Source: Hyphomicrobium sp.
GTDB lineage: Bacteria; Pseudomonadota; Alphaproteobacteria; Rhizobiales; Hyphomicrobiaceae
Direction of reading: 5' to 3'
Assembly (NCBI GenBank): GCA_003987725.1
Contig: RXJH01000001.1
Location: forward strand, 1 to 64,000
Length of the DNA: 64,000 nt
Shown here: positions 1 through 9,735 of the stretch, one piece after another
Layout: each line of letters begins with the position of its first letter
Position numbering within the stretch: position 1 is the first letter of the stretch
Notes under the pieces: generated by a model
Databases searched by the model: none
What the model was told of the DNA's origin: nothing
The model's input: the letters and a program-made list of their open reading frames with translations, nothing else
Made by a program: the position numbers and the translations under genes

Positions 1-330
1 GTGAAGACGATCGCGACGGAGATCTATCGCGCCGCCGACATCGCCTGCGACGCGAGCGTCGAGACGCAGTTCAAAGACTTCGAGGCCGCGGGCTTCGGCC
101 ACTTCCCGGTGTGCATGGCGAAGACGCAGTACTCGTTCTCGACCGACCCGGCGAAGCGCGGCGCACCGACCGGCCACATCGTGCCGATCCGCGAGCTCCG
201 CCTCTCGGCGGGCGCCGAGTTCATCGTCGTCGTCACCGGCGAGATCATGACCATGCCGGGCCTGCCGAAGGTGCCGTCGGCCGACTCGATCCGCCTCGAC
301 GACAAGGGGCAGATCCAGGGACTGTTCTAA
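1..330 (+). CDS. fhs: Formate--tetrahydrofolate ligase, C-terminal part (5' truncated by window edge)
   Basis: The reading frame is open from the first base and stops at 328-330, so only about the last 109 residues are present. Formate--tetrahydrofolate ligase makes 10-formyl-THF from formate, ATP and THF in the cytoplasm. The recognisable family ending is [16 protein letters not shown] followed by GQIQGLF, preceded by a TGEIMTMPG stretch, as in known Fhs C-termini. The GTG at position 1 is simply an internal valine codon. The next gene is folD, which interconverts 10-formyl-, methenyl- and methylene-THF, so the pair forms a one-carbon module. The identification rests on the C-terminus only. 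Confidence 0.88.
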
Positions 331-482
331 CAGCAGGCGCCGGCGGCTCTCCCAGCCGGGGGAAGTCGCCGACGCCCACCAAAGACGATGCGCCGGACGC
401 GCTCGGAATGCCTCGATCAAACTTCTGCCAACGCGCTGCAGGGTTCTTCTGAGAGCGCTGCAACACTTCAGCGAGCAACACA

Positions 483-1385
483 ATGACAGCCAAAATTATC
501 GACGGTAAATCCGTGGCAGCTGGCGTTCGTCAAGAGTGCCGGCAACGGGTCGATGTTCTCAAAAAGCAGTTCGGTGTGTCCCCGGGCCTCGCGGTCATCA
601 TGGTCGGAGAAGACCCGGCGTCGGCCGTGTACGTGCGAAAGAAGATCCAGGCCTGCGCCGACGTCGGCATCGATTCACGCAAGTTCCTTTTTCCGGCGGA
701 CGTCGATCAGTTGACCGTCATGCAGAAAATTGCAGAGCTCAGTGCGAACCCGTCGATCCACGGCATCTTGGTGCAGCTGCCGCTGCCGAAACACTTTGAC
801 GTCAAGGCGGTTCTCGGCGCCATCGATCAAGAGAAGGACGTCGACGGCTTCCATCTCTACAACGTCGGCGGCTTGGTCATCGGCGATACGGTGTTTCCGC
901 CCTGCACGCCTTACGGCGTCATGCTGATGCTCGACAGTGCGGGCGTCGAGGTTTCCGGTCGCAACGCGGTCGTTGTCGGCGCCAGCAACATTGTTGGCAA
1001 GCCGATGGCGCTGATGCTGATGCAGCGCGAGGCGACGGTGTCGGTGTGCCACGCGAAGACGCGCGATCTCGCTCAATTTACAATTCTCGCAGACATTCTG
1101 ATCGTGGCAGCTGGATACCCCAATCTGATCACCGCGCCGATGGTCAAGTCGGGCGCCGTGGTTATCGATGTCGGCATCAATCGCTTGGCGAACGGCCAGC
1201 TGGTGGGCGACTGCGATTTTGAGGGCGTGAGCCGGCGCGCGTCGATGATCACGCCCGTTCCGGGCGGTGTTGGCCCGATGACAGTGACGATGCTGCTCGT
1301 CAACACGATCAGCTCGGCCGAGCGCTCGTTGAATGCGATTGGCTCGCCCGCCAGCAACTATCGCGCAGTTGCACCCAGTGCATGA
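483..1385 (+). CDS. folD: Bifunctional methylene-THF dehydrogenase / methenyl-THF cyclohydrolase FolD
   Basis: A 300-residue protein of normal family length. FolD oxidises 5,10-methylene-THF with NADP+ and hydrolyses methenyl-THF to 10-formyl-THF in the cytoplasm. Visible signatures are the substrate-site block AVYVRKKIQACADVGI with the catalytic Tyr/Lys, ILVQLPLPKH, KDVDGFH, PCTPYGVM, the Rossmann segment VVVGASNIVGKPMA, the ADILIVAAG and VIDVGINR strands, and ITPVPGGVGPMTVTML near the C-terminus. It starts at an ATG about 150 bp after fhs, with no strong Shine-Dalgarno sequence. It follows the fhs gene directly, which fits a shared one-carbon role. The C-terminal 20 residues beyond the conserved core are not recognisable. 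Confidence 0.96.
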   Translation: MTAKIIDGKSVAAGVRQECRQRVDVLKKQFGVSPGLAVIMVGEDPASAVYVRKKIQACADVGIDSRKFLFPADVDQLTVMQKIAELSANPSIHGILVQLPLPKHFDVKAVLGAIDQEKDVDGFHLYNVGGLVIGDTVFPPCTPYGVMLMLDSAGVEVSGRNAVVVGASNIVGKPMALMLMQREATVSVCHAKTRDLAQFTILADILIVAAGYPNLITAPMVKSGAVVIDVGINRLANGQLVGDCDFEGVSRRASMITPVPGGVGPMTVTMLLVNTISSAERSLNAIGSPASNYRAVAPSA

Positions 1386-1533
1386 GGAGAGCGCGCTAGA
1401 ATGGAAGTGCAGGCCATACGTTATTGTCATCGAGCCTGAGCTTGCCACCCGCCGCTGAACTCACTTAACATTCCTGTCGGGAACGCCCGTTTCCATGGGC
1501 GATTTCTCGATCGGTTAATGTGGCGGTGCAGCA

Positions 1534-2502
1534 ATGTCTTCGAAGAACATTCGGCACGACGACTTTTTCCGGAACCTCGATTGGAATCTTTTTAAGATCT
1601 TCTGCATCATCGCGGAAACGGGCGGCGTAACATCGGCCGCCGAGCTGCTGCGCCGCAAACAGCCCTCGATAAGCCTCGCTCTGCAACGGCTTGAAGGTCA
1701 CCTCAATGTACGACTGTGCGAAAGAGGACCGAGCGGTTTCGAGCTGACCGATGAAGGCCGCGCACTCGCCGATACGTGCATGAAATTGAAGGCGCTGGTG
1801 CGTGGTATTCCTGATGCCATGGCCGATACGGTCAACATGGTCAGTGGTCCGGTGCGCATCAAAATGATCAGCAATGTCGTCAGCGAAGTTCTTGACGACG
1901 TGATCACGTCTTTTCACAGGAAGTGTCCGAACGTCGAGTTGATCGTCGACGTGGCCAGTTGGTCGGACGTCATCAATGCATTGCTTCGGAAAGAGATCGA
2001 CATCGGCGTCGCCCCATCGCGAAGCAAACGGGCTGACCTCATCTATCATCCGTTGTTCCGCGAAATTCATCGTCCCTATTGCGGGCGCAGCCATCGCCTC
2101 TATGGCCATAAACTTCTCGATCCTAAAGCACTGGCCCAGGAGTCCTTCATCCTCACCGGTGCCGACGAACCCGATCAGCTCTCCGATTTCCGCCTGAAAT
2201 ACGGAATTGGGCAAAAGGTTTCGGGTATCTCCCAACATCTGGAGGAGGCGCGCCGCCTGGCGATCCTGGGTGTTGGCATATGCTTCCTCCCCGATGCCTA
2301 TGCGGCTCCCGACGTTTCCTCGGGGCGGCTGTGGCCGCTGCTTGGCAAGCGCAACGCGCCTGCGATGGAGATTTTCATCATCTCGAATCCAGACCGGCCC
2401 TGGCACATGGCTCACATCTTCTTCATCGAAGAGTTGAAGCTGGTCGTCTGTGAAGCAAAGCGCGTTCGCTCACTCGTCGGCGCTGACGAGGCGGCAGACT
2501 AA
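1534..2502 (+). CDS. LysR-family transcriptional regulator
   Basis: A 322-residue protein with a typical LysR layout: an N-terminal winged helix-turn-helix at about residues 12-75 (DWNLFKIFCIIAETGGVTSA, then QPSISLALQRLEGHLNVRL and CERGPSGFELTDEGRAL), followed by a periplasmic-binding-like effector domain from about residue 95 to 300. It lies on the same strand as, and about 215 bp before, the ABC transporter/hydrolase operon, so it is the obvious candidate regulator of that operon; this is inferred from position only. LysR proteins usually bind T-N11-A dyads near the target promoter; I see no unambiguous one. The 148-bp gap from folD probably holds its promoter. The C-terminal tail beyond residue 300 is not distinctive. 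Confidence 0.9.
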   Translation: MSSKNIRHDDFFRNLDWNLFKIFCIIAETGGVTSAAELLRRKQPSISLALQRLEGHLNVRLCERGPSGFELTDEGRALADTCMKLKALVRGIPDAMADTVNMVSGPVRIKMISNVVSEVLDDVITSFHRKCPNVELIVDVASWSDVINALLRKEIDIGVAPSRSKRADLIYHPLFREIHRPYCGRSHRLYGHKLLDPKALAQESFILTGADEPDQLSDFRLKYGIGQKVSGISQHLEEARRLAILGVGICFLPDAYAAPDVSSGRLWPLLGKRNAPAMEIFIISNPDRPWHMAHIFFIEELKLVVCEAKRVRSLVGADEAAD

Positions 2503-2716
2503 CTGCATTCTTGAATCGCTGAAGCTGAACAGAGTGTGCGTGCTTGAGTGCGCGGCGATCGCGTGACAGCATTCGCGCTGCAGCATAGGCACCGTCAATG
2601 CTTTCCATTTTGATTTTGGGCGTTTTCTTGGAGATGCCCGCGCCACTACCTTCTTCGCAGAAACTGAGACTGAACAAAACGCCTTGTTTTTCAGTCTTTG
2701 TCGGGAGGGTAGAGCC

Positions 2717-3613
2717 TTGGAAAGTGCGATGTCCAAATCGCGCGACGCTTCAGTTTCCTCGCTTGAAAATTTGCCAAGCGAAAACGTGGAAGCCGCGCCA
2801 CTTTATATTCCACCGAAAGAAAGATTCCTTGAGTTTAGAAGACAGCCGAGTACGCAGCGAGCTTCAGTGCTGGCTTTCATCGGCGCGCTGGCCTTCTTCG
2901 GCTTGTGGGAGGCCGGCCACTATTTGACACCAGCGTCGGCCCGGAAGTTTTTCCCGTCGATCGGCGAGGTGGGTTCGGCCCTTTACATGCTGTTCGCCGA
3001 GCGCAATTTCCTCCACGACGTCTCGATCAGCTGCTGGCGGATTTTCGTCAGCTTCATGGCGGCGTCTGCGATCGGCGTGCCGATCGGCATTCTGATGGGC
3101 TGCTTCGGAAACATTCGCGCGCTCTTCAATCCGACCCTGACGGCTTGGCGATATCTGCCGGCGGCGTCTTTCATTCCGCTGCTGCTCGTCTGGTTCGGGC
3201 CGACAGACCAGGCGAAAATTGCACTCCTCTTTATCGGTGTCATTTTCTTCCTGATCTCGCTGGTTCTGGATAACACCACCGCCATCCAGAAAGAGTTCGT
3301 GGAAGCCGGTCTGACCATGGGGGCGTCACGCCGCGTCATTCTCACTGGGATCGTCGTCCCCGCGGCTCTGCCGGCAATCTTCGACTCCATGCGCAACATG
3401 ATCGCGGTGAGCTGGACCTATCTGGTCATCGCCGAAATCGTCGGTGCGCAGGATGGCATCGGCGCCGTGATGATGCGTGCCGGACGGTTTCTCAACGTCG
3501 ACGTGATCATGGCCGGCATCGTCACGATCGGTGCGTTGGGTCTGCTGACTGACGTGATTTTCCGGGGCGCCGCCCGCGTCCTGTTCCCGTGGAACGTCGA
3601 GCGGAGATCGTAA
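2717..3613 (+). CDS. ABC transporter permease, NitT/TauT (SsuC-like) family
   Basis: Inner-membrane permease of an importer for a small substrate. The protein has a hydrophilic N-terminus of about 45 residues and then about six membrane segments. It contains the EAA-type loop (EFVEAGLTMGASRRVILTGI) and the family ending VSWTYLVIAEIVGAQDGIG with AGRFLNVDVIMAGI, as in SsuC, TauC and NrtB. I place the start at TTG 2717 because GGGAGGG at 2703-2709 lies seven bases upstream. The ATG at 2729 is about 19 bases from it, so starting there would leave the ribosome site unused. It is followed after one base by the ATPase gene, then by the binding protein, so it is the first gene of a five-gene operon that also encodes a guanidinase-like enzyme. 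Confidence 0.9.
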   Translation: MESAMSKSRDASVSSLENLPSENVEAAPLYIPPKERFLEFRRQPSTQRASVLAFIGALAFFGLWEAGHYLTPASARKFFPSIGEVGSALYMLFAERNFLHDVSISCWRIFVSFMAASAIGVPIGILMGCFGNIRALFNPTLTAWRYLPAASFIPLLLVWFGPTDQAKIALLFIGVIFFLISLVLDNTTAIQKEFVEAGLTMGASRRVILTGIVVPAALPAIFDSMRNMIAVSWTYLVIAEIVGAQDGIGAVMMRAGRFLNVDVIMAGIVTIGALGLLTDVIFRGAARVLFPWNVERRS

Positions 3614-3614
3614 A

Positions 3615-4421
3615 ATGAATATCGTCGCAAAGGATTTTACGCCGGTGACAAACGTCCCTCCGCTGAAAGCGTCCCGCATCACCAAGGAGTATCTGGGCGG
3701 TTCCTTCAAGGCGCTCGACGACGTTTCGTTCGAGCTGCACAACAACCAAATCACAGCTTTCGTTGGTCCGTCAGGCTGTGGAAAGACGACGATGCTCCGC
3801 ATCATCGCGGGTCTCGAATATCCGACACGTGGGCGGCTTGAGGTCTTCGGCAAGAACGTGCAGGGGCCCGGGCCTGACCGAGGGATGATTTTTCAGGCGT
3901 ATACGTCGTTTCCTTGGCTGACCGCCATGCAGAACGTCGAATACGGGATGAAGATCCTGAAAGTTCCAGCCGCAGAGCGGCGCGAACGCACGATGAATTT
4001 TCTCAAGCTCGTGCATCTCGAGAAGTTCGCCGACACCTATCCGCGCAGTCTCTCAGGCGGCATGAAACAGCGCGTCGCGCTCGCTCGAACGCTGGCGCAA
4101 AATCCGGCGATCATCCTGATGGACGAACCGTTCGGTGCGCTCGATGCACAGGTTCGCTGGGAAATGCAGGAGCTCATGATCGAGTTGATCGAGCGTGAGA
4201 AGAAAACGGTCGTCGCGATCACGCACGATATCGAAGAAGCGATCTATCTCGCCGATCGGATCATCTTCTTCAGCCGCCAGCCGGGCCGCATCAAAGCCGA
4301 TATCCCGCTGACCTTCAAAGGCGGGCGGCGCATCAAGCAAAAAGAAGAGCTTCTCGAAATGCCCGGATATGCGGAGCTCGAGCGGCAGCTGTTCGCGATG
4401 ATGCGCGAGGAAATCAAATAG
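3615..4421 (+). CDS. ABC transporter ATP-binding protein, NitT/TauT (SsuB-like) family
   Basis: A 268-residue cytoplasmic ATPase that energises the permease encoded just upstream. Walker A is GPSGCGKTT (about residues 52-60), the Q-loop is IFQAYTSFPW, the ABC signature is LSGGMKQR, Walker B is IILMDEPFGALD, and the H-loop is AITHDIEEA. The ending with IKADIPL and a basic C-terminus is common in this subfamily. The start codon is one base after the permease stop, so translation is probably coupled. The operon context (substrate-binding protein, arginase-fold hydrolase, nickel permease-like protein) suggests import of guanidine or a related cation rather than nitrate or sulfonate; sequence alone does not fix the substrate. 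Confidence 0.93.
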   Translation: MNIVAKDFTPVTNVPPLKASRITKEYLGGSFKALDDVSFELHNNQITAFVGPSGCGKTTMLRIIAGLEYPTRGRLEVFGKNVQGPGPDRGMIFQAYTSFPWLTAMQNVEYGMKILKVPAAERRERTMNFLKLVHLEKFADTYPRSLSGGMKQRVALARTLAQNPAIILMDEPFGALDAQVRWEMQELMIELIEREKKTVVAITHDIEEAIYLADRIIFFSRQPGRIKADIPLTFKGGRRIKQKEELLEMPGYAELERQLFAMMREEIK

Positions 4422-4482
4422 CCAATCTGCTTCGACGAAAAAAAATCCAGGGATCGAAAATCGTTCAGGGAGACGACAAAAA

Positions 4483-5628
4483 ATGAAAACGAAGTCGTTC
4501 ACGAACACTTTGCTCGCTCTTGGCTTGGCGGCCGCGGCTGCGCCTCTCGGCGCACCATTGGCCAGCGCTGCCGAAAAGGTCAGTGTGGCGATCATTTCAT
4601 TCTCGCCCTACGCGCCCTGGTACATCGTCAAGGCGAAGGGCCTCGCGAAGGATATCGATCTCGACGTCAAGATCATCGAAGGCATCACGGAAAAGAACGC
4701 GGCGATCACGTCGGGGCAGGTTCAATGCATGAACAACACCATGGACAGCATGGTGTTGGCGCGCGCGGGTGACCTTCCGGTCAAGGTCGTCGCGTTTTCG
4801 GATATGTCCTACGGCCTCGACAAGATGGTGGTGACGAAGGACATCAATACGGTCGAGGACTTCAAGGGCAAGAAGTTCGGCGCCGACTACGGCTTCCTCA
4901 ATCATATGTGGATGCTGCTCACTATGAAGCGGGCAGGTATCGACATGAAGGAGCTGCAACACGCCGTCATGCTTCCGCAGGAGAGCGCGGCGGCGTTCGC
5001 GAGCGGCGGCATCGACATCGACGTCAACTACGATCCGTTCGCAGCTCAGTCCCTGAAGCGGGACGGAGCCAAGATCTTCAAATCGAGCCTCACGGACCGC
5101 ACATGGGAACGCGGGCTCATTTCCGATGCCATCGCCTGCAACGAATCCTGGCTCGCCGCGAAACCGGCGGTCGCTAAAGAGCTGCTTCGCGCGTGGTTCG
5201 AAGCAGTCAACTGGTGGAAGGAAAATCCGGAGGAAGGCGACGCGATCGTCGCTCAAGGTCTTTCATGGCCTGTCGCCGACGTAAAGCTCAATCAGTACGG
5301 CGCGATCATGCTCAACATCAGTCAGAACATGGGCGCGCTTGGTCTGGAGGGCGGGAAGCCTCTCTGTCAAAGCCTGCCTGAAGGAGCTCCGCATGCTCCT
5401 GACGGCAAGGGTTGGGGTGCGCTGTTCGGTGGGGAAGACTGCATCGCCGGCTACGCAGAGCCGACCTGGGATCTGTTCAGCGAGACCTATCTAGCGGCGG
5501 GCGTGTCGCAGAAGAAGGTCAGCTCAAAGGAAGCATTCGATCCGTCGATCATTTCCTCGCTCGCCAAAGATGGCTTCCCGGAGAAGTACTCGTCGAACAA
5601 ATGGATCGGGCGGCTCGGTCCGCAGTAG
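4483..5628 (+). CDS. ABC transporter periplasmic substrate-binding protein, NMT1/SsuA-like
   Basis: A 381-residue secreted protein. The N-terminus (MKTKSF, then a hydrophobic stretch ending PLASAAEK) is a Sec signal peptide with likely cleavage after ASA near residue 29. The mature part has the NitT/TauT binding-protein pattern: VAIISFSPYAPWYIVKAKGL at the first strand, a GITEKNAAITSGQVQ segment, and VEDFKGKKFGADYG for the hinge region. An AGGGAGA ribosome site lies upstream of the ATG. It is the third gene of the operon, 61 bp after the ATPase. By analogy with cyanobacterial clusters, where a similar three-part transporter sits beside the Ni-dependent guanidine hydrolase, guanidine is a plausible ligand; this is inference. 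The mature protein carries four cysteines, which might form disulfides. Confidence 0.88.
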   Translation: MKTKSFTNTLLALGLAAAAAPLGAPLASAAEKVSVAIISFSPYAPWYIVKAKGLAKDIDLDVKIIEGITEKNAAITSGQVQCMNNTMDSMVLARAGDLPVKVVAFSDMSYGLDKMVVTKDINTVEDFKGKKFGADYGFLNHMWMLLTMKRAGIDMKELQHAVMLPQESAAAFASGGIDIDVNYDPFAAQSLKRDGAKIFKSSLTDRTWERGLISDAIACNESWLAAKPAVAKELLRAWFEAVNWWKENPEEGDAIVAQGLSWPVADVKLNQYGAIMLNISQNMGALGLEGGKPLCQSLPEGAPHAPDGKGWGALFGGEDCIAGYAEPTWDLFSETYLAAGVSQKKVSSKEAFDPSIISSLAKDGFPEKYSSNKWIGRLGPQ

Positions 5629-5691
5629 CGGTGAGCCAACTCATCAACTCAGCGAATATCTCAAATATCTCACAGTAAAGGTCACTTCGAA

Positions 5692-6921
5692 ATGGCTCGT
5701 AGTCCTAAAGATCACGATCATCACCATCCCCACACGCACCGTCATGGCCATTCGCATGGCGTAAAGCGTGAGGAAACTCACGGCGCAAAGAGCATGGAGA
5801 CGTTGTCTCGCATCTCTCAGAAAAAGCAGGACGAGGAAGTTACCCGATCGCTCGAGTATGGGCTCGAGGCCGCAGATTCCGTCATCGATCGGAATATCTC
5901 GTTGTTCAGCCGTGGGCATCAGCCGGCGTTTGCGGGCATCAATACGTTTATGAAGGCGCCGTACTGCGAAGACATCCGCAAGATCGGCAACTACGAGGCG
6001 GCGTTCGTCGGCGCGCCATTCGACTCGGCGACGACCTACAGGCCGGGCACTCGTTTTGGACCACAGGCCGTCAGGCGGATCTCGGCGCTCTACGACGGCT
6101 ATTGGTTCGACGGCGGCGTCGATATCTACGAGGAACTCGATCTTTGCGACGCGGGGGATATCTTCGTCATTCCCGGCAACATCGAGAAGACGTTCGATCA
6201 GGTTACGAAAGCCGTTTCGCACATTTACACGTCCGGCGTCTTCCCGATCATCTGCGGCGGCGATCACAGCCTGGGCTTCCCGAACGTCAGGGGCATCGCT
6301 CCGCACATCGACGGCAACGTCGGCATCATTCACATCGACCGGCACATCGATATCCAGGAGAAGGATATGGATGAGCGCATGCATACGACGCCATGGTTCT
6401 GGACGACGAACGAAGGGACGCACGCGTCGCATCGTGACCACAGCCACATGCACGATGTCGGTTTGCCCAACTGCCATCCGAAAAATCTCGTGCAGATCGG
6501 CATCGGCGGCTGGTACGGCAACCGCCCGGGCACGGCCGTTGCCAAGCGCCGCGGCACGAGCGTGCTGACGATGCATGACGTTCAGCACCACGGTCCAAAG
6601 AAGGCCGCGGAAATCGCGCTCGAGATGGCGTGGGAAGGCTGCAAGGCGGTCTATCTGTCATTCGATATCGACTCGATCGATCCAGGGTTTGCTCCAGGCA
6701 CCGGTTCACCGGAGCCAGGAGGATTATTACCGCGTGAAGCGTTCGAGATGATCCATACGATCGCGGCGGAAGGCCTGTGCGGCATGGAGGTCGTCGAAGT
6801 GTCGCCGCCGTACGACGTCAACGACAACACGGCGCAGCTGGCCTGCCGGGTCGTGCTCGATGTGCTTGGAACCCTGGTGGCGAACGGCAAGCTCGGCCAT
6901 CGCGGCAAAGTCATGAAGTAG
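5692..6921 (+). CDS. Ureohydrolase (arginase) family enzyme, probable Ni-dependent guanidine hydrolase GdmH-like
   Basis: A 409-residue arginase-fold metallohydrolase. Metal-site motifs are GGDHS (189-193), DRHID (216-220) and FDIDSID (324-330). Most agmatinases and arginases have DAHxD at the second motif. The DRH form, together with ERMHTTPWF (228-236) and PEPGGLLPREA, resembles what I recall of the cyanobacterial Ni2+-dependent guanidine hydrolase (Synechocystis Sll1077), which releases urea and ammonia from guanidine. A long N-terminal region precedes the catalytic core, as in that group. Two histidine clusters stand out: nine His between residues 8 and 22, and five between 244 and 254. 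It sits between a NitT/TauT-type importer and a HupE-like gene, matching guanidine uptake and nickel supply. Agmatinase or guanidinobutyrase are alternatives; the substrate is inferred. Confidence 0.78.
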   Translation: MARSPKDHDHHHPHTHRHGHSHGVKREETHGAKSMETLSRISQKKQDEEVTRSLEYGLEAADSVIDRNISLFSRGHQPAFAGINTFMKAPYCEDIRKIGNYEAAFVGAPFDSATTYRPGTRFGPQAVRRISALYDGYWFDGGVDIYEELDLCDAGDIFVIPGNIEKTFDQVTKAVSHIYTSGVFPIICGGDHSLGFPNVRGIAPHIDGNVGIIHIDRHIDIQEKDMDERMHTTPWFWTTNEGTHASHRDHSHMHDVGLPNCHPKNLVQIGIGGWYGNRPGTAVAKRRGTSVLTMHDVQHHGPKKAAEIALEMAWEGCKAVYLSFDIDSIDPGFAPGTGSPEPGGLLPREAFEMIHTIAAEGLCGMEVVEVSPPYDVNDNTAQLACRVVLDVLGTLVANGKLGHRGKVMK

Positions 6922-6932
6922 GAGGGCATACG

Positions 6933-7556
6933 ATGAAAGTTTTACGCGCGCAGCACGTTCTCAAAGCCTTTGCCGCTGGCTCTATTCTGACTTTGGCGGC
7001 GACCGCTCCAGCCTCGGCTCACGTCGGGCTCGGTGCCGTCCACACGTTCAGTCAGGGCTTTCTGCATCCGATGAGCGGCATTGACCACATCATAGCGATG
7101 GTGGCCGTCGGCTTCTTTGCCATCAACATCGGTGGTTCGGCACGGTGGCTCGTACCAACAGCATTCGTCGTCGCGATGATGTTCGGTGGGCTGCTTGGCT
7201 ACTATGGTTGGCCGCTGCCGATGGTCGAACAGGGTATCGGTCTGTCCGTCGTTGCCATGAGTGCGGCAATCGCCGTCGGCATCCGTCCGCCGACGGTCCT
7301 TGCGATGGCGGCCGTCGGGTTGTTCGCGGTCTTTCATGGTCATGCCCATGGTAACGAGGGAGCCGGTCTCGGTTTCGCCTTCCTTCCCTACGCTGCAGGG
7401 TTCGTTGCCGCGACCGTGCTTCTGCACGTATCGGGAATGGTCTCCAGCCTCTGCATCGATCAGCTGAAACCATCGGCGGCGCTCACGTTCAAACGCGTTT
7501 CCGGCGTGATTGGCAGCCTTGTCGGCTTGTCACTGCTGCTCGGGGCAATGGGCTAA
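6933..7556 (+). CDS. HupE/UreJ family protein, probable nickel permease
   Basis: A 207-residue membrane protein. The start is ATG 6933, supported by GGAGGG six bases upstream. A signal-like N-terminus ending PASAH is followed by the family motif HPMSGIDH (residues 45-52) in the first helix and about six membrane helices; a further His motif FHGHAHG lies mid-protein. HupE and UreJ proteins move Ni2+ for hydrogenase or urease maturation. No hydrogenase or urease gene lies nearby; its partner here is the upstream ureohydrolase, only 11 bp away, so it probably feeds nickel to that enzyme. It is the last gene of the operon and is followed by a strong intrinsic terminator. Family assignment is firm; nickel specificity is inferred from family and context. 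Confidence 0.9.
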   Translation: MKVLRAQHVLKAFAAGSILTLAATAPASAHVGLGAVHTFSQGFLHPMSGIDHIIAMVAVGFFAINIGGSARWLVPTAFVVAMMFGGLLGYYGWPLPMVEQGIGLSVVAMSAAIAVGIRPPTVLAMAAVGLFAVFHGHAHGNEGAGLGFAFLPYAAGFVAATVLLHVSGMVSSLCIDQLKPSAALTFKRVSGVIGSLVGLSLLLGAMG

Positions 7557-7585
7557 CAGCTTTTTGTGTGCGGGTGTGTGAGGGA

Positions 7586-7620
7586 GAGGCAAGTCCCATC
7601 CGGGACTTGCCTCATTTTAC
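7586..7620 (+). terminator. Intrinsic terminator of the transporter/ureohydrolase operon
   Basis: A perfect 12-bp inverted repeat (GAGGCAAGTCCC at 7586-7597 and GGGACTTGCCTC at 7602-7613) with a four-base loop, followed by ATTTTA. It lies 30 bp after the HupE-like stop codon. Because the repeat is symmetrical it could also act on the other strand, but no minus-strand gene approaches it. Confidence 0.85.
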
Positions 7621-8189
7621 GACTACGTTTTGATCAGCTGAGGTGGATGGTTCTCAACTTCTTGCGCGATGACAACAAACGGGACCTCTACGTGCGCCGC
7701 GCCAGCTAAAACACATCGTCTCTTCCGGCGACTGTACCGCAATCGAGCGAGCGCAGAACTTTTTTAGACATTACACAAACTATTATACTTGTTTGCGAGG
7801 AACCGATGCCGCGCGCCATTCGCACATCTCATCATCTCCGAACGAGTGGACGTTGCAATTGACCCGAGAGGTCGCATGCTAGATAGTCCACAGCAATGCA
7901 GTGGCCTGATGATATGAAGCAGGTCTGATGGGAATGATCCCAGTTCCAATATTTTTTGGGCGGGTCCCACACGTCACGTAATAAAAACGGATGCTATCGC
8001 AAGGTTGTCCTCCGTGAGCGTGCGCGACGTTCGAGAAACAGCTCTGCGATCATAAACGACTGCTATCGGCACTTCGCCCGAAGCAACACTCCAGAACTTC
8101 GATATCGATCTACGAAGACGACGCATCGGCCAACCTGCAGCCGGCTTACTCGTAGCTTCTAACAATCGCGAGAGAAACAGGAGTTCAAC
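7621..8189. other. Gene-poor interval, about 570 bp
   Basis: No convincing gene. Short open frames on both strands lack ribosome sites and recognisable motifs. The stretch around 7740-7800 is noticeably AT-rich. A short plus-strand frame around 7830-7918 reads ERVDVAIDPRGRML, faintly like the start of a PilZ domain, but it ends after about 30 residues. The 3' end supplies the AGGAG ribosome site of the next gene. Confidence 0.5.
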
Positions 8190-8810
8190 ATGTCGAGATG
8201 TATCGCGTACGGCTTTGCGGCGCTCCTAACTGCCGCTCCAGCACTGGCCATCGCGCAAACAGCCCAACCCATGCAAGGCCAGCCGATGCAAGGCCAGACA
8301 ATGCAGGGAATGCCGATGCAAGGAATGCAACGGATGCAGGGGATGCAAGGGATGCAAGGGATGCCGGGAGGGCAAATCGGTGCCGGGGATGACGTGACCA
8401 CCAATCGGATCGATGTCGTGAAGGCTGCCTTGCAGCTAAGGCCCGATCAAATGCAGTACTGGCCCGCAGTCGAGGAAGCGATCCGTGCGCGGGCGGAGGG
8501 ACGCCGCGAAAGAATTGAGAACATGATGTCTCGCATGGAGGAAGGTCAATTTGACCGGAATTTCGTGCAGGTCTTGCAAAATCGAGCTGATAATCTCGTG
8601 GCTCGTGGCACCGAGCTCAAAAAGCTCGCTGACGCATGGCAGCCTCTTTATTCGACCCTGGACGACGCTCAGAAGCGGCGGATGCGCGTGCTCGGCGTCC
8701 TCATTCTCCATAGGATGAGGGAAGGCATGGAAGCCCGGCGCGAGCGGATGGAGGACGAAGGTGGCGGAGCCATGATGGGCGCCGGTGCCGGCGAGATGGG
8801 CCGCGAATAG
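8190..8810 (+). CDS. Spy/CpxP-like periplasmic protein (LTXXQ family) with Met/Gln/Gly repeat
   Basis: A 206-residue protein. A signal peptide (cleavage near LAIAQ, residue 23) is followed by a low-complexity segment (about 28-60) built from seven MQG units. Then comes an all-helical domain with two LTxxQ-like motifs, LRPDQMQYW and LDDAQKRRM, as in Spy/CpxP proteins. These are periplasmic chaperones or metal/envelope-stress sensors. The helical part is rich in Arg and Glu and ends in a Gly/Met-rich tail (GGGAMMGAGAGEMG). CAGGAG lies upstream of the ATG. The methionine repeat could bind Cu(I) or other soft metals, which is inference. It appears monocistronic, with a hairpin after it. Family assignment is by motif and composition only. 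Confidence 0.75.
   Translation: MSRCIAYGFAALLTAAPALAIAQTAQPMQGQPMQGQTMQGMPMQGMQRMQGMQGMQGMPGGQIGAGDDVTTNRIDVVKAALQLRPDQMQYWPAVEEAIRARAEGRRERIENMMSRMEEGQFDRNFVQVLQNRADNLVARGTELKKLADAWQPLYSTLDDAQKRRMRVLGVLILHRMREGMEARRERMEDEGGGAMMGAGAGEMGRE
8271..8363 (+). repeat. In-frame ATGCA(A/G)GG tandem repeat coding the MQG segment
   Basis: Tandem copies of a 6- to 12-base unit based on ATGCAAGG, some with CAG or CCG inserts, encode MQG repeats near the N-terminus of the Spy-like protein. Copies differ by single bases (AAGG/AGGG), so the array has drifted. Repeats of this kind can change length by slippage in multiples of three without breaking the frame. Confidence 0.8.
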
Positions 8811-8825
8811 GATCACCGCGTCAGA

Positions 8826-8861
8826 CGGAAGGCCGGAGGTAGAGAGACTTCCGGCTTTCCG
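8826..8861 (+). terminator. Hairpin after the Spy-like gene, possible terminator
   Basis: Arms CGGAAGGCCGGA (8826-8837) and TCCGGCTTTCCG (8850-8861) pair over 12 bp with one G-U wobble. No T tract follows on either strand, so it may stabilise the 3' end or serve the two converging genes as a weak terminator. Confidence 0.45.
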
Positions 8862-8907
8862 GGCTCGTCCGTCCGCGTCGGCGTAGTCTGCCGCGAGGGG
8901 TTGGTGG

Positions 8908-9441
8908 TCAAGCGGGAACGTAGGTCAACCTCATCGTGTCCTCACCAATTGCATCGCTGGCGACAAGGCGGAGCGGAGGCCGGGGGCCAGCAAAGAATGG
9001 CTTGCCTCGACCAAGCACAAAGGGGCGGAAGTAGAGGCGATACTCATCGATAAGGCCGAGGTCCGTCAGGCTTCCAGCCAACTCGGGTCCGGCGACCGCG
9101 ATCTCCCCGACATGCTTAGCCTTCAGCGCGCGCATCGCCGCTTCGACGTCGCCGCCGACGAGGGTGGCGTTAGGGCCGACGGACTTCAATGAACCAGACA
9201 CGACCCACTTCGGTTGGTTTCGCCATGCGGCTGCGAATTCATGTCGGTCCGCGTCCCACTCCGGATGGTCTTCATCCCAATATCGCATCACCTCGTACGT
9301 GCGGCGACCATAGACGCTGCCGGTCAGGTTGCGCACATGTTCTATCCAGTGACGAAAGAGGACGCGGTCAGGCGGCCGCATTTCCTCGTGATCGACGTAG
9401 CCGTCTAACGACAGGTTCATTCCGAACACGAACTTCGCCAT
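8908..9441 (-). CDS. RibD C-terminal/dihydrofolate-reductase-like family protein
   Basis: A 177-residue cytoplasmic protein of the RibD_C fold. The N-terminus MAKFVFGMNLSLDGYVD is the typical first strand of this family. GSVYGRRTYEVMRYW matches the second conserved block, WVVSGSLKSVGPNATLVGGD the middle, and EIAVAGPELAGSLTDLGLIDEY with VLGRGKPFF the C-terminal block. It probably reduces a small substrate with NADPH, but the substrate is unknown; members are often stand-alone genes annotated only as dihydrofolate reductase family. A longer open frame runs upstream, but it crosses the tRNA gene and reads as translated tRNA, so the start at 9441 with the family N-terminus is chosen. It converges on the Spy-like gene. 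Confidence 0.85.
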   Translation of the reverse strand: MAKFVFGMNLSLDGYVDHEEMRPPDRVLFRHWIEHVRNLTGSVYGRRTYEVMRYWDEDHPEWDADRHEFAAAWRNQPKWVVSGSLKSVGPNATLVGGDVEAAMRALKAKHVGEIAVAGPELAGSLTDLGLIDEYRLYFRPFVLGRGKPFFAGPRPPLRLVASDAIGEDTMRLTYVPA

Positions 9442-9645: not shown

Positions 9646-9735
9646 TGGCGGAGGGGGTGGGATTCGAACCCACGGTGGACTTGCGCCCACGCCGGTTTTC
9701 AAGACCGGTGCCTTAAACCACTCGGCCACCCCTCC
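9646..9735 (-). tRNA. tRNA-Ser (anticodon UGA)
   Basis: The minus-strand sequence begins GGAGGGG and ends CCCCTCC-G-CCA, a perfect 7-bp acceptor stem with encoded CCA. A D-arm (GGCCGAGTGG, then TTAAGGC) is followed by an anticodon stem CCGGT/ACCGG enclosing CTTGAAA, so the anticodon is TGA and reads UCA. A long variable arm typical of serine tRNA follows, then GTGGGTTCGAATCCCAC as the T-arm. The 90-base length fits a class II tRNA. It is upstream of, and co-oriented with, the RibD-like gene. Confidence 0.96.

Follow-up and report, generated by a model that had tools for sequence, protein, structure and literature searches.

The window, a 64,000-nucleotide stretch of DNA from Hyphomicrobium sp., carries near its start an operon encoding an ABC importer, a ureohydrolase of the arginase fold (409 residues; 5692-6921, plus strand) and a nickel permease. 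We give an even chance to this operon serving the catabolism of an alkylated guanidine, with monomethylguanidine the most likely one. Plain guanidine would seem an unlikely substrate, because the enzyme lacks the tryptophan that marks the guanidinases. Monomethylguanidine, on the other hand, would be the simplest single substrate to join the facts set out below. An earlier note on the same DNA had read five of the genes as an import, hydrolysis and nickel-supply operon for a guanidine-like compound.

Among proteins of solved structure, the enzyme is closest to the guanidinase of N. inopinata (9fek, 439 bits) and the guanidinium hydrolase of Synechocystis (7esr/7oi1, 437 bits), the next being guanidinobutyrase at 161 bits. 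Its closest homologues in sequence are from a metagenome-assembled genome (MAG; 99% identity), Hyphomicrobium facile (97%) and Hyphomicrobium MAGs. The motifs DRHID and ERMHTTPWF, to which the earlier note had drawn attention, are both present. However, the patterns D-R-H-x-D and ERMHT-PWF are common to the enzyme and both characterised guanidinases, so that they do not separate it from these.

According to PMC11410670, the guanidinase metal ligands are H182, D207, H209, D211, D299 and D301 in N. inopinata numbering, T105, H222, W313 and E344 are the residues relevant to guanidine, and proteins without both Thr105 and Trp313 are classed as inferred not to be guanidinases. In the alignment all six ligands are kept in the window enzyme (H192, D216, H218, D220, D325 and D327), as are Thr105 (Thr115 in the window), His222 and Glu344. 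Where N. inopinata has Trp313 and Synechocystis Trp305, the window enzyme has Ser339, whose codon lies at 6706-6708 on the plus strand; of the pair named in the published rule, it thus keeps the threonine but not the tryptophan. This column holds serine in 25 and threonine in 22 of the 47 Ser/Thr rows of our alignment, as against tryptophan in all 55 rows of the guanidinase clade. Two histidine-rich segments also set the enzyme apart. An insert of about residues 237-253 (6400-6450, plus strand), which follows the HTTPW loop, is missing in the guanidinases; its residues His247, His250, His252 and Met253 are found in 39 of the 47 Ser/Thr rows and are gapped in all 55 Trp rows. The N-terminal tail (residues 1-23; 5692-5760, plus strand) is a possible nickel-binding arm, with nine histidines in residues 1-25. 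At least six N-terminal histidines occur in the window and in all ten of the loci L003-L012 (L-numbers denote loci), to which subclade the feature is confined, while the remaining 36 Ser/Thr loci, one of them (L061) a fragment without the N-terminus, have at most three. The earlier note was silent on both segments and on Ser339, as it was on the LysR gene described below.

In searches with a predicted model of the enzyme the two guanidinases rank first, followed by the metformin hydrolases. The mean predicted local distance difference test score (pLDDT) is 76.9, with weak active-site loops at 112-121 and 232-256 and values below 50 in residues 1-20, and the model superposes on 9FEK with a root-mean-square deviation of 14 angstrom over 373 columns. 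It was used for the fold only and not for the substrate pocket.

Relatives were drawn from the best 80 of 396 places encoding one, so the sample leans to close relatives. A tree was built with the specificity column masked, and support was taken from the Shimodaira-Hasegawa-like approximate likelihood ratio test (SH-aLRT). Its 105 rows are the window enzyme, 79 of the 80 named loci, 20 further relatives, two PDB chains and three outgroups. Fragments L061, L107 and L108 (the first with threonine in the column, the other two with tryptophan) and duplicates L084, L085 and L086 had been removed. The 55 Trp rows, which include both characterised guanidinases, group together with an SH-aLRT of 100. 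Outside this clade, the window enzyme falls in a separate Ser/Thr clade of 39 rows (SH-aLRT 100), and eight further Ser/Thr rows (L040-L045, L075 and L077, including Actinomycetospora, Arthrobacter, Streptomyces and Embleya) belong to neither. The earlier note had named a phylogeny with characterised ureohydrolases and GdmH as one check: the enzyme indeed does not group with agmatinases, but nor does it fall among the guanidinases. As the outgroup agmatinase has threonine in the specificity column, Ser/Thr is probably the ancestral state there.

The two types of locus also differ in their riboswitches. Of 34 Trp genomes, 32 have guanidine-I (RF00442) above its cut-off, as do six of 42 Ser/Thr genomes. 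It lies within the range of the enzyme locus at 31 of 34 Trp loci, by coordinate, since contig numbers could not all be matched by name, whereas it was found at none of the 46 Ser/Thr loci (45 covered by a genome search with a stricter filter and L015 by direct scan). Direct scanning gave the same picture, with seven of seven Trp loci positive against none of the 15 Ser/Thr loci tested. The six Ser/Thr matches over the cut-off are all away from the enzyme: four are beyond the locus or contig, L011 is clean by direct scan and that of L008 is about 40 kb away. The L033 and L044 genomes also have sub-threshold matches of 34 bits, which may or may not lie near the enzyme. A guanidine riboswitch, typical though not required of GdmH operons, is absent from the window operon, positions 1-9000 giving no Rfam match at E-values up to 5. 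Over the whole window a tRNA alone exceeds its gathering score (9649-9735, minus strand). Guanidine-I is described in PMC12508155 as discriminating against methylguanidine, and a guanidine-II riboswitch as responding equally to methylguanidine and guanidine. Guanidine-II is over its cut-off in nine of 43 genomes searched, that of the window included.

The loci of the Ser/Thr enzymes offer a link to methylamine. In Hongsoonwoonella zoysiae (L025/L133) the enzyme frame is divergent from, and 248 bp away from, an operon of the N-methylglutamate type; between this operon and that of the host of the window, the four main proteins share 57-83% identity. The host operon (L124) consists of soxB-like, soxA-like, glutamate-synthase-like and GmaS-type genes and is taken by us to encode the N-methylglutamate pathway for methylamine, the small subunits being assigned by position only. 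Further from the enzyme, L039 has GmaS and part of the adjoining glutamate-synthase-like gene 8.2 kb downstream, L016 has a glutamate-synthase-like gene at 8.6 kb, and the genome G038, which is outside the 46 loci, has GmaS at about 14 kb. Core methylamine genes at more than 38% identity are found in none of the 34 Trp loci. In L013 and L029 the enzyme instead adjoins HypB and two tandem ureohydrolases resembling DmgH, the dimethylguanidine enzyme. PMC11399263 places Ser288-Thr289-Ser290 of DmgH-alpha near the nickel ions; in the DmgH-alpha-like protein of L013 the last serine of the motif PGSTSPE aligns with Trp313, and its counterpart in L029 is alanine. It is the relative so near to a methylamine operon, the two beside DmgH-like pairs, and the methylamine pathway and urease of the host that make methylguanidine the best fit.

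Other neighbours touch on amine metabolism less directly. A type III glutamine synthetase is found near eight of the 46 Ser/Thr loci (cluster C8), but its reading as GmaS was rejected: only the L039 copy is close, at 77% to one host copy, while the remaining seven reach 34-42% with either host copy and are therefore given little weight. For the copy in L007 the closest solved chain is glutamate--methylamine ligase. An AllG-like protein, a TetR regulator and the type III glutamine-synthetase-like protein recur as a module near the enzyme in L007, L011, L013, L020 and L031, with an APC permease also clustered in all of these but L020 (families from single members). APC permeases are also upstream of the enzyme in L006 and L012, that of L006 matching the trimethylamine N-oxide permease model (844 against 690). 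The genome of Hyphomicrobium facile encodes the enzyme twice in nearly identical form, at L004 with the ABC importer and at L006 with the APC permease. On the Trp side, 15 of 34 loci (L057, 11233-11661, and 14 others) have a conserved protein of median length about 154 residues just after the enzyme; the one member scanned had no Pfam match.

The host genome (4.25 Mb in 15 contigs, the window being on contig C5) has other routes for guanidino compounds. About 0.22 Mb along C5, an ABC importer (TIGR03427 for its binding protein, 543 against a cut-off of 334) stands behind a guanidine-I riboswitch, and a guanidine-II riboswitch is followed by UAAP1 (318 against 206), UAAP2 (339 against 285), a urea/guanidine carboxylase (1892 against 1304) and allophanate hydrolase (785 against 511). 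This riboswitch-controlled operon (L131, 6319-16220; G000, C5, 212000-231900) would make up a putative guanidine carboxylase pathway, complete at the level of protein families. The genome also has two matches to PF00491, of which the one outside the window is an agmatinase (230 against 174.3). With guanidine and agmatine provided for in this way, the window operon probably serves a third guanidino compound. There are two strong matches and a third, marginal one to urease alpha.

Nickel is the likely metal of the enzyme, as judged from the conserved ligands and the company of nickel permeases. The window gene that follows the enzyme (6933-7556, plus strand) matches HupE/UreJ (PF04955) with 162.7 bits against a gathering score of 23. 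A nickel permease lies within 5 kb of the enzyme at 14 of 46 Ser/Thr loci (HupE at eight, a NicO-like protein at six) compared with none of 34 Trp loci, where the window HupE finds no match better than E = 2. The slot after the enzyme is held by HupE in some relatives and by the NicO-like protein in others, and in L015 HupE stands behind the ABC genes instead. Such a swap of two permease families at one place speaks separately for a nickel requirement of the enzyme. A nickel role of the NicO-like proteins (cluster C16) is suggested by their family, their position and an HX4DH-like motif, which we take to be nickel-related; against the NicO cut-off of 27.7, L039 scores 30.5 and L033 falls short at 19.6, while L016 has no match and L010 is unmatched. 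Nickel, as proposed in the earlier note, is thus likely, but its idea that HupE replaces the chaperones as a variant organisation is not supported. Elsewhere the genome has one HypB over the cut-off and two weaker matches beside the ureases (UreG by position). Moreover, PMC11399263 reports hypA and hypB ahead of both metformin hydrolase genes and a HupE homologue immediately after them, and hence the pairing of HupE with a nickel ureohydrolase has been published already. In PMC11410670 the authors report finding no nickel chaperones for the N. inopinata guanidinase.

The operon itself is made up of five consecutive genes on the plus strand, all with open reading frames and of the families that the earlier note gave them. 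They begin with an ABC permease of the TauC/SsuC type (2717-3613; PF00528), whose start may be TTG 2684, TTG 2717 or ATG 2729 and which is under the cut-off of every NCBIfam model among the matches listed. It is followed by an ATPase of the NitT/TauT type (3615-4421; PF00005), for which no NCBIfam cut-off is reached among the best 25 of 190 models, and by a periplasmic binding protein of the NMT1/SsuA family (4483-5628; PF09084), which has four weak matches among solved binding proteins, three of them named for sulfonate, taurine and nitrate. An SsuA/NMT1 binding protein, a TauC-like permease and a matching ATPase together constitute an importer of the NitT/TauT type, for which none of the NCBIfam models listed reaches its cut-off. 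The gaps between the genes, up to the enzyme and HupE, are 1, 61, 63 and 11 bases, close to the 1-64 bp claimed. The stem-loop that the note read as the terminator at the end is likely one: its 12-bp stem is perfect (7586-7613, plus strand; -28.8 kcal/mol, z -5.7), though its tail is weak, with four T only, and a consensus scan does not list it. Upstream on the same strand is a LysR-type gene (1534-2502; PF03466/PF00126), probably the regulator of the operon, which we count into the system since it also recurs beside the enzyme in relatives. The order LysR, permease, ATPase, binding protein, enzyme and HupE is repeated in L003, L004, L005 and L008. Within 6 kb of the enzyme, a LysR at least 40% identical and a binding protein at least 50% identical each occur at 14 of 46 Ser/Thr loci and at none of 34 Trp loci. 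All these neighbour counts used window proteins as queries, the NicO-like protein coming from clustering, so that they would overlook more divergent counterparts in Trp loci.

In the scheme that we propose, LysR would sense the compound or its product, the NitT/TauT-type transporter would import the methylated guanidine and HupE would bring nickel in. The enzyme, whose di-metal ligands are those of guanidinase, would convert methylguanidine to urea and methylamine, the methyl group being accommodated in the space that Ser339 leaves where guanidinases have tryptophan. Urease, whose genes are present by family and synteny, would then free ammonia from urea, and the N-methylglutamate pathway, assigned on the same grounds, would use methylamine as a source of carbon and nitrogen.

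Several observations weigh against methylguanidine. MefH, the metformin hydrolase, is reported inactive on it in PMC11399263, as is the N. inopinata guanidinase in PMC11410670, so that activity on it is not known for any relative. Guanidine-II riboswitches near the enzyme in L006 (32.5 bits against a gathering score of 32) and L008 (35.8 bits) would respond to guanidine too. The marginal L006 match (6671-6720), with two ACGR-loop hairpins, is about 200 bases before the LysR of the second H. facile copy, and only small frames begin between them. Core methylamine genes are within reach at three of 46 Ser/Thr loci against none of 34 Trp loci (p = 0.26), and the neighbours at many Ser/Thr loci are uninformative on substrate. 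Although GmaS is over the cut-off in 37 of 42 Ser/Thr genomes against six of 34 Trp genomes, this contrast fades among 67 genomes of the order of the window (five of five against 13 of 21, p = 0.28, the 21 including L107 and L108, partial matches typed as Trp; 12 of 41 genomes with neither enzyme type). Co-occurrence of GmaS at the genome level was accordingly dropped as strong evidence. The Trp and Ser/Thr types differ by a single change on the tree, so what contrasts the clades does not count as several independent events, and Ser/Thr, being probably ancestral, argues against guanidine better than it argues for methylguanidine.

What else, then, might the substrate be? A GdmH-type enzyme could use guanidine as nitrogen source after all, with serine for tryptophan and LysR instead of a riboswitch. 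Its closest characterised relatives are guanidinases, it keeps Thr105, His222, Glu344 and the metal ligands, the binding proteins next to Trp-clade enzymes belong, like that of the window, to the broad NMT1 family, and two relatives have guanidine-II riboswitches nearby. We nevertheless consider this unlikely, because the tryptophan is missing from all 47 rows outside the guanidinase clade, guanidine-I is at 0/46 loci against 31/34, and the host already has the riboswitch-controlled carboxylase operon with its own importer. On these grounds guanidine itself, as a reading of the guanidine-like compound of the earlier note, is not supported and is kept as a rival, while the importer does prove to be of the broad NitT/TauT type, with an NMT1-family protein, found beside guanidinases. 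Marginally less doubtful is another small guanidino compound, such as N,N-dimethylguanidine, guanidinoacetate, a creatine-like compound or ethylguanidine, which would be split into urea and its corresponding amine or amino acid. The tandem DmgH-like genes in L013 and L029 speak for this, and varied neighbours in the clade (amidohydrolases, FAD oxidases and GcvT-like proteins) could mean varied substrates; yet a second dimethylguanidine enzyme would be redundant where DmgH-like genes are present, and guanidinoacetate or creatine leaves the methylamine operon beside L025 unexplained. An agmatinase, guanidinobutyrase or other classical ureohydrolase is highly improbable. The automatic models TIGR01230 and PRK02190 do match, but the score against the former, 153.4, is under the curated cut-off of 174.3, which the other host protein passes, and agmatinase was rejected as an identity since that protein fills the role. 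The guanidinases moreover far outscore guanidinobutyrase, in line with the view of the earlier note that the enzyme is a GdmH relative.

Compared with GdmH (Synechocystis Sll1077, PDB 7ESR/7OI1) and the N. inopinata guanidinase (9FEK), the window enzyme has in common its family, the six ligands, Thr105, His222 and Glu344, and differs in Ser339, its separate clade, and its histidine-rich tail and insert. The GdmH operon of Synechocystis likewise has an ABC importer (PMC12186494), and urea is the expected product in both. The window operon has LysR and HupE, no guanidine-I riboswitch and, unlike that of Synechocystis, no adjacent nickel chaperone genes. DmgH and MefH (Aminobacter and Pseudomonas; DmgH also Hyphomicrobium) belong to the same nickel ureohydrolase family, and the metformin and dimethylguanidine operons have HupE downstream, as in the window. 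The DmgH-alpha-like protein of L013, moreover, shares with the window enzyme a serine near the metals at the tryptophan position. The window enzyme, however, shares 32% identity with the DmgH-alpha-like protein of L013 and 31% with that of L029, DmgH and MefH are two-subunit enzymes whereas the window has a single gene and not two in tandem, and their operons have adjacent hypA and hypB.

For methylguanidine itself, PMC11970497 cites a methylguanidine amidinohydrolase of Alcaligenes sp. N-42 (Nakajima 1980). Its reaction is the one proposed here, with methylguanidine decomposed to methylamine. We take it to be EC 3.5.3.16, and we know of no gene or sequence with which to compare the window enzyme. 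MgdH/MgdL, a dioxygenase-lyase pair whose operon carries guanidine riboswitches, would share the substrate but achieve oxidative demethylation to guanidine and formaldehyde (PMC12508155); this is the genetically defined methylguanidine route that we met. No gene for its hydrolysis is named among the open-access PMC matches listed, which cover titles and the starts of abstracts and may miss subscription papers.

Nickel ureohydrolases have been characterised for guanidine, dimethylguanidine and metformin. Tentatively, and with less confidence than in the substrate of the operon, we suggest that the Ser/Thr clade is a nickel-dependent methylguanidine hydrolase family, supplying the gene for the activity of 1980, and that in Hyphomicrobiales it has its own histidine-rich nickel arm and a nickel permease (HupE or, independently, the NicO-like protein) in place of adjacent HypA/HypB. 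If so, proteins that automatic models match as agmatinase-like would be given a different function, and the substitution of tryptophan by serine or threonine would be a testable specificity switch. Monomethylguanidine is formed from creatinine, and it would be a source of both carbon and nitrogen for methylotrophs.

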